A DNA stretch of 40,411 bases, taken from assembly GCA_003167475.1 (NCBI GenBank), contig PMTB01000268.1, positions 1-40,411 on the forward strand, in the 5' to 3' direction. A program made the position numbers and the translations under genes. Each line of letters starts with the position of its first letter. The stretch's first letter is position 1. Of the stretch, positions 36,389-40,411 are shown piece by piece. Origin of the DNA: a candidate division FCPU426 bacterium (GTDB lineage Bacteria; Oederibacteriota; PGYV01; Palsa-1178). The notes beneath the pieces are model-generated. The model worked only from the letters and a program-made list of their open reading frames with translations. It was not told where the DNA came from and ran no database searches.

Positions 36389-36724
36389 TTAAAGCCTCTT
36401 TTTTGCCCCTTCAAATAGCCCGGCCAGGTTCGCGTCTATTTCGGCGAAAGACTTCAAGGCCGGCATACCGCGCCTGGGCATTATAAGAACGGTAACGTCA
36501 TTCAGGGAACTTTTATGTTTATGGTAAGCGGCCCTGATCCAGCGTTTATACCTGTTGCGGTCAACGCTTAAGTTTATGGATTTTTTTGCGATATTGGCCA
36601 CAAAAAAGCCAGTTTTATGACCCACGGGTTTTGTCATATATACGGAAAAAAAGGTATTTCCTTCTTTTATCCCGTTTTTAAGGATGAATTTTATATCCTT
36701 TGTCTTGGGCGTCTGGCGTCCGAT
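36389..36724 (-). CDS. rnpA: Ribonuclease P protein component, apparent ATC start
   Basis: The protein subunit of RNase P, which matures tRNA 5' ends with the catalytic RNA. The RNR signature is in [15 protein letters not shown]. The first ATG in frame (36637) gives only 82 residues and cuts off the conserved first helix and strand. Upstream of it the frame stays open and reads [18 protein letters not shown] and NTFFSVYM, a good match to the RnpA N-terminus, back to an in-frame TAA at 36743-36745. No ATG, GTG or TTG exists in that stretch. ATC at 36722-36724, nine bases after GGGG, would give 111 residues, the normal length. A sequencing error is the alternative. Confidence 0.85.
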
Positions 36725-36771
36725 GTATGTAACCCCGGGTTTTTATATAGTTTATAGTGTGAATTTAACAT

Positions 36772-39048: not shown

Positions 39049-39741
39049 TTACTTGGGCTCCGGGCTTTGGGCTATGGCAACTTTTTTATACGGCTTATCA
39101 AACCGATTTTCATAAGCTGTATTCCTTTTCAACCAGCTTGTGAAATACCAGTCGGCCAGGCCCGTTATTTTCATGAGCAAGAACACCGGGTACATCAGCG
39201 GGCTGAATTTGTAAGGCAGTTTCATCCTTGATATGATGGTTTTATCCAGGTATTCTGTCCTGCCGAATATCCTGCCAAGTTCCGTGAAGTCCGCGAAAAG
39301 TTTTTTTGTCATTGACGGCGGCATGACCTGTATGCCCTCAACCCCGCCTTTGGCTATGGTTCCCAGATAAAAGCAGCCCAGTTTTACGCACAGCTTTTTC
39401 AGGTATTTTTCCAGGAAGGCTATGTTTGCGCCCTCGGTAAAACCGGACTGCACTATGAAGCCTAGCTGCGGATTGGTTTTTTTCCCCTTGAATTCCTTAA
39501 GAGACTCTATGAATATCTTGACCTTCGCCGGCATGGAATCGGCGTAAAGGGGGAACGCTATTATGACAGCTTCCGATTCTTTGAAGAGCTTTTTGCCTGC
39601 CTGGTGATCACCGACGGACAGGTAAGCCAGTTCAAAACAATTACCCGGCGTTTCCATGAAACCCGTTGTGAATTTTTCAAGCAATATCTTTGTATTGCTT
39701 GCCTTATACCTTGGCGAGCCGTTAAAAATCGACAGTTTCAT
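39049..39741 (-). CDS. Flavodoxin-fold NAD(P)H-dependent oxidoreductase
   Basis: A 230-residue protein of the flavodoxin-like fold. The FMN phosphate loop is NGSPRYKASNTKILL at residues 7-21, and AFPLYADSMPAKVK (about 62-75) is the second flavin-contact loop, as in NADPH-dependent FMN reductases. The C-terminal 60 residues (MKLPYKFSPLMYPVFLLMKITG and on) are an extension that may lie on the membrane. Substrate unknown. Its ATG, with GGAG seven bases upstream, lies inside the preceding flavodoxin-fold gene; the frames overlap by 20 bases, so the two are translationally coupled and may form a heterodimer. Confidence 0.82.
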   Translation of the reverse strand: MKLSIFNGSPRYKASNTKILLEKFTTGFMETPGNCFELAYLSVGDHQAGKKLFKESEAVIIAFPLYADSMPAKVKIFIESLKEFKGKKTNPQLGFIVQSGFTEGANIAFLEKYLKKLCVKLGCFYLGTIAKGGVEGIQVMPPSMTKKLFADFTELGRIFGRTEYLDKTIISRMKLPYKFSPLMYPVFLLMKITGLADWYFTSWLKRNTAYENRFDKPYKKVAIAQSPEPK

Positions 39742-40273
39742 GTATGAGCTCCATTGGCGGTTTTTTTGTTGACGCGTAAAATATTACGGTGCTCCTGAAA
39801 TTAAGGGCGAACCGTTCAAATATATCCCTGTTTATCTGCACATCCTCTTCGTCGGTATCGGCTTCGGCCTTGTATATGAAGGCAAGTTCGGGCGTGGTGC
39901 CATAACGCAGCGTATGGCGCGTCTCGCCCATGACAAGCTCGGAAAAGGGCAAAAGAAGCGGTACCATGCGTTCCTGCAGGGTTTTCGCCAGCGAGTGCAT
40001 GAAACCCATGGCATAAGGCGCCGCGAAGACCACAAGGTCATTGTGGTTGATATGCGTGAGGATCTTATACACGTCATCCTTCAAAACGCATACGCCCGGT
40101 GTTTTTACCCAGCAATCCCAGCAGCCGATGCATGGTTTGACGTCCATATCGCGGACAGTCAGGTATTCCACGCTGTGAAGTTTAAGTTCCAGCCCGTTTT
40201 TGAATTCGACGGCGTACTTTTCAAATTCGGCGTCTTTTTTGTCCGGGTTTAGATTAAGCAATAGTATATTGAT
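39722..40273 (-). CDS. Flavodoxin family protein with Cys motif, apparent ATC start
   Basis: A flavodoxin-fold protein of about 183 residues with PCIGCWDCW (Cys at the FMN-binding region, as in iron-sulfur flavoproteins and NADPH-dependent FMN reductases) and FAAPYAMGFMHSLAKTLQERM as the second flavin loop. The first standard start is TTG at 40261, but it lies 20 bases from the GGAGG and removes most of the first strand. ATC at 40273 is eight bases from GGAGG and gives (M)NILLLNLNPDKK, the expected strand-loop start. No ATG, GTG or TTG lies between the in-frame stop at 40291-40289 and 40261. A likely partner is the overlapping flavodoxin-fold gene downstream. Confidence 0.78.
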   Translation of the reverse strand: MNILLLNLNPDKKDAEFEKYAVEFKNGLELKLHSVEYLTVRDMDVKPCIGCWDCWVKTPGVCVLKDDVYKILTHINHNDLVVFAAPYAMGFMHSLAKTLQERMVPLLLPFSELVMGETRHTLRYGTTPELAFIYKAEADTDEEDVQINRDIFERFALNFRSTVIFYASTKKPPMELIHETVDF

Positions 40274-40344
40274 ATGAAGTACCTCCGGTTAAGTGTTTAA
40301 GATGTTTATAGTCGGATGTTTTAGCTGTAACCTTTTATGGGAAT

Positions 40345-40373
40345 ATGATAGCAAAAAAGCCAGCCATAATCAA
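40345..40373 (-). promoter_or_regulatory. Possible promoter of the flavodoxin pair
   Basis: On the minus strand TTGATT (40373-40368), 17 bases, then TATCAT (40350-40345). A better -35 (TTGACA at 40395-40390) lacks a good -10. Confidence 0.45.
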
Positions 40374-40411
40374 TGGCGGATTAAGCAAGTGTCAATGCAA
40401 AATAAGAATGT

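Follow-up and report, generated by a model that had tools for sequence, protein, structure and literature searches.

A conserved ATC as the very likely start codon of a flavoprotein gene in an uncultured bacterial lineage

Where does translation begin in a gene whose conserved N-terminus lacks a well-placed standard start codon, and does such a gene point to a wider habit of its genome? The window (the whole stretch of 40,411 nucleotides analysed here) raises this question with gene 1 (39722..40273, minus strand), which encodes a 183-residue FMN-reductase/flavodoxin-like protein beginning I-NILLLNLNPD. Around the start the minus strand reads 5'-ttaaccGGAGGtacttcatATCaatatactaTTGcttaatctaaacccggac (longer read ttaaccGGAGGtacttcatATCaatatactaTTGctt). 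An in-frame TAA at 40289..40291 (minus strand) sets the upstream limit on possible starts, and the stop-to-stop frame begins at 40288. A GGAGG Shine-Dalgarno sequence at 40282..40286 (minus strand) is followed, after a spacer of 8 nt, by an ATC at 40271..40273, the positions and spacing being those proposed in an earlier note made from the letters of this DNA. The only ATG, GTG or TTG near the conserved N-terminus in the window is a TTG at codon 5 (40259..40261, minus strand). Among near-cognate codons ATC alone lies at Shine-Dalgarno distance, in the window as in its sister species. The bare motif GGAGG-N5-9-ATC is not enriched in the window, with 3 copies against 4.4 expected (mean of shuffles), and the case for an ATC start consequently rests on comparison and conservation.

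The closest comparison is with the other genome of the same genus (G001), in which the orthologue (L024) is 79% identical at the protein level along the entire frame that opens with the ATC. Its leader reads ttaaccGGAGGtaagctgccATCaacatacttattttaaacttaaacccc (longer read ttaaccGGAGGtaagctgccATCaacatacttattttaaac) and shares with the window the 13 identical bases TTAACCGGAGGTA, that is, a strictly conserved Shine-Dalgarno sequence. The ATC is likewise kept, with a spacer of 9 nt from GGAGG instead of 8 nt, and an in-frame TAA stands two codons 5' of it. Between the two species nine of codons 1-15 are changed, seven of them synonymously, whereas just 5' of the ATC the 1-nt length difference breaks the frame. 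As judged from these two leaders, coding-type change starts at the ATC. The presence of the ATC in two separate assemblies makes a base error very unlikely. The ATC form of gene 1 is confined to these two species, and the remaining 12 genomes of the order yielded no orthologue.

Homologues from elsewhere in the phylum (G034 and G031, 41-43% identity to the gene 1 product) place the start at the same point. Their genes begin GTG AAA ATC/ATT ACT ATT TTT/TTA AAT GGA AAT CCC, and the GTG falls exactly on the position of the ATC. In a weak match (E-value 0.047), residue 2 of the sister protein is the first to align with the Flavodoxin_2 model, at model position 2. In a structure model built from nine homologues (mean pLDDT 79, residues 1-10 with pLDDT 91), the predicted first strand of the gene 1 product comprises residues 3-7, in agreement with the earlier note's expectation that the ATC opens the first strand of the fold. 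We interpret these observations as making AUC initiation of gene 1 very likely, and give a probability of about 0.9 to the fuller reading, in which gene 1 would be translated from the AUC at 40273 by weak, IF3-restrained initiation, placed by the Shine-Dalgarno sequence and with a low ceiling. A structured leader was also considered and is discarded, because the leader RNAs of both species show no advantage in folding over shuffled sequences (z-scores of -0.33 and +0.83) and an Rfam search of the window returned a tRNA and nothing else.

A broader explanation would be that selection on start codons is relaxed throughout the lineage, with AUC, AUU and CUG serving as everyday starts. This is close to the suggestion of the earlier note that the organism uses AUC freely, which was based on a second ATC case within 4 kb. 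The latter is presumably rnpA (36724-36389, minus strand, in the stretch 36389-36742), and here the observation stands: the ATC start at 36722..36724 recurs in G001 and in three other genera (G002, G003 and G007), while the start is ATT in G004, G008 and G009 and TTG in G005, G010 and G013. Its first standard start in the window, an ATG at 36637, lies 29 codons downstream and would remove the conserved N-terminus. An AAGGAG-type Shine-Dalgarno sequence precedes the rnpA start in several of the compared genomes; in the window genome (G000) and G001 it is a weak GGGGTTA. Read in this comparative way, the AUC/AUU start of rnpA is a lineage trait extending across several families. The start of rnpA in the lineage is also AUU or UUG, however, and its pairing with gene 1 is thus weak evidence for a genome-wide habit.

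An argument for relaxed selection could also be drawn from the initiation machinery. The window genome has an intact IF3 gene (infC, L069), whose product gives a good alignment with solved IF3. In each of the 11 IF3 sequences of the order that were examined, the residue corresponding to E. coli Arg116 is Glu, in contrast with the Arg of one genome elsewhere in the phylum (G014), and the IF3 of the window genome has a one-residue insertion near this site relative to E. coli. Across the order the start of infC is likewise AUU or AUC, but infC is a classic exception elsewhere too. It is conceivable, though unlikely, that infC, rnpA and (in one genus) the flavoprotein operon form a small AUC/AUU regulon that reads out IF3 activity and is tied to the Glu-altered C-domain of IF3.

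The frequency of non-standard starts argues against a lineage-wide relaxation. The stretches sampled came to about 0.58 Mb in G000 and 1.10 Mb in G001 (approximately 1.68 Mb together, a partial sample giving small counts). Local alignment ends proved too noisy as a test of starts because the alignments run into the leader; orthologues of G000 and G001 were compared instead for shared standard starts with a Shine-Dalgarno sequence. A standard start and its Shine-Dalgarno sequence are shared by 83 of the 99 coding pairs, and in the remainder gene 1 alone is without a plausible standard start while sharing Shine-Dalgarno sequence and ATC. A scan centred on the Shine-Dalgarno sequence covered 559 genes of both genomes in which this element is clear, and 532 of them have a standard start at it. 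Inspection by hand of the other 27 left as non-standard gene 1 (in both genomes), infC with ATT (G000), ruvC with CTG (G001) and one possible ACG (G001). Neither the approximately 1.68 Mb nor the 99 pairs yielded a further AUC start, and the free use of AUC supposed earlier is not borne out. On these counts near-cognate starts are rare, at an estimated order of 0.5-1% of genes with a Shine-Dalgarno sequence, known exceptions included, and AUC appears confined so far, within the sampled stretches, to gene 1 and rnpA. The rnpA starts across several families, the starts of infC, the CUG of ruvC and the altered IF3 residue notwithstanding, we regard relaxed selection as unlikely.

Two of the rarer starts deserve separate mention. 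In G001 the ruvC gene (L211, L212) begins with CTG and in G000 with TTG, ahead of ATCATACTTGGC/ATCATTCTTGGC, while its start is ATG in most other genomes of the order; this is ordinary drift of a weak start. The possible ACG belongs to a 406-residue frame (G001:C52:27988-28227, minus strand) in which AAGGAGG is followed at a distance of 6 nt by an ACG, and a standard codon is absent over 23 codons. It has no match in G000, G002, G003 or G004, and may reflect either initiation at the ACG or a change in the assembly or the strain.

Returning to gene 1, translation might instead begin at the TTG of codon 5, leaving the ATC untranslated. TTG is a standard bacterial start and would be the choice of a standard gene caller, but 20 nt separate it from GGAGG. 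The sister species has ATT here, so that the TTG is no conserved start, and its first in-frame ATG, GTG or TTG is not reached until codon 35 (a GTG). Moreover, codon 5 is situated within the predicted strand of residues 3-7, which initiation at the TTG would cut in half. Both the distance and the damage to the strand had been anticipated in the earlier note, and a start at the TTG is highly improbable. The concern that standard callers miss the start is likewise justified, as a caller limited to ATG, GTG and TTG would trim gene 1 by four residues in the window species and by 34 in its sister.

Only one other near-cognate codon nearby, the ATA at codon 3, is common to both species, and for AUA as a start there is precedent in Staphylococcus aureus (PMC13009471). 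As the start of gene 1 it would nevertheless stand 14-15 nt from GGAGG, compared with 8-9 nt for the ATC, and the homologous GTG aligns with the ATC and not with the ATA, which leaves this alternative very improbable as well. That gene 1 is decaying, its ATG or GTG lost and its conserved frame a relic, is hardly credible: a change of start codon did occur, GTG being found at this position in the nearest relatives beyond the genus, but both species retain an intact frame, third codon positions account for 71 of the 118 base differences over the whole gene and 57 of the 96 changed codons are synonymous (the mark of a living gene), the Shine-Dalgarno sequence is strictly conserved, and gene 2 is still linked.

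For initiation at the AUC of gene 1 we propose the following course. The strong Shine-Dalgarno sequence would set the 30S subunit over the AUC, where the ordinary initiator tRNA (anticodon CAU) could pair with the first and second positions, leaving a C-C mismatch at the third. The protein would then start with formyl-methionine, at a low rate. IF3 would restrain this initiation further, and initiation should rise when IF3 is scarce. In vitro, IF3 discriminates in favour of strong pairing at the third base, and the output from weak pairs is very low (PMC10158994). The weak AUC start would in this manner impose a low, IF3-tunable ceiling on the flavoprotein, whose expression it probably keeps low, and the 20-nt overlap between the genes would probably extend this ceiling to gene 2. 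In this model we infer from the sequences that methionine is inserted, that output is low, that initiation is sensitive to IF3 and that gene 2 is coupled to gene 1. An initiator-like tRNA with a GAU anticodon was sought in the sampled stretches of the genomes, which contained neither a CAU nor a GAU tRNA.

The classical precedent is infC of E. coli, which starts with AUU and is under autocontrol by IF3. Gene 1 resembles it in having a near-cognate start that is expected to be sensed by IF3, in a lineage whose own infC starts with AUU or AUC. It differs in that its product is a flavoprotein, which leaves no autoregulatory loop. In Listeria, where non-standard starts amount to less than 0.3%, rnhC starts with ATC and infC with ATT, and the initiation sites are said to be experimentally confirmed (PMC13068326). 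Listeria rnhC parallels gene 1 as a conserved gene other than infC with a fixed ATC start; the gene is, however, a different one, and its start is said to rest on experiment, whereas that of gene 1 is deduced from sequence and belongs to an uncultured lineage. In S. aureus, cvfC1 (AUU) and ccpN (AUA) have strong Shine-Dalgarno sequences and yield approximately 10% of the output of AUG, and infC starts with AUA (PMC13009471). Common to these genes and gene 1 is a conserved weak start combined with a strong Shine-Dalgarno sequence in operon-leading or regulatory genes, with the low output of the S. aureus genes presumably shared by gene 1. The differences are that the codon here is AUC instead of AUU or AUA, and that the Shine-Dalgarno sequence comprises six bases (GGAGGT) and is not extended.

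Conserved near-cognate starts are thus already established, and gene 1 adds one in an uncultured lineage by a mechanism that is not new. As a metabolic gene whose AUC start is well supported and shared by two species, it speaks for the comparative detection of near-cognate starts as an addition to annotation. With rnpA it makes up a short list of genes in this uncultured lineage that are candidates for IF3 sensitivity and open to test.

The assignment of the gene 1 product to the FMN-reductase/flavodoxin-like proteins is based on the alignment of nine homologues, the structure model, Foldseek and a profile match to 7d38. With the model as query, the best solved matches in Foldseek are SP1951 (FMN complex), flavone reductase and several azoreductases (TMq 0.6-0.73), and the same flavone reductase (7d38) is the only sound sequence-profile match of the protein. 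Searched by itself, the gene 1 protein gives no Pfam match at 1e-3, and FMN_red is found in the homologue L025. All nine homologues share CIGCWDCWxKTPGxC, a CX2CX2CX7C arrangement in which C48, C51, C54 and C62 are invariant. It fits CX2CX2CX4-7C, which we take to be the cluster motif of iron-sulphur flavoproteins (Isf-type), and by this cysteine motif the product is a candidate iron-sulphur flavoprotein of the Isf type. The sequence-profile search of the gene 1 protein returned no Isf structure.

Gene 2 (39049..39741, minus strand) starts with an ATG, shares 20 nt with the end of gene 1 and encodes a second flavodoxin-like protein (FMN_red). In Sedimentibacter a single chain of approximately 410 residues (L033) matches the products of gene 1 and gene 2 in its successive parts (34% identity each), and open frames of similar length occur in Acetoanaerobium and Acholeplasma-related genomes. 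Both domains of the window pair are accordingly found there in one chain, apparently with a TTG start in L033, as opposed to the two overlapping genes of the window. Their fusion in Sedimentibacter suggests that the two products probably work together, and a low-abundance role in electron transfer or as a reductase may be envisaged.

Upstream of gene 1, the outermost 67 bases of the window (40345-40411) recur at the ends of two further contigs of the same genome (C25 and C200; 76-79% identity). This repeat is a dispersed element at contig breaks and contains a promoter-like match to TTGACA.
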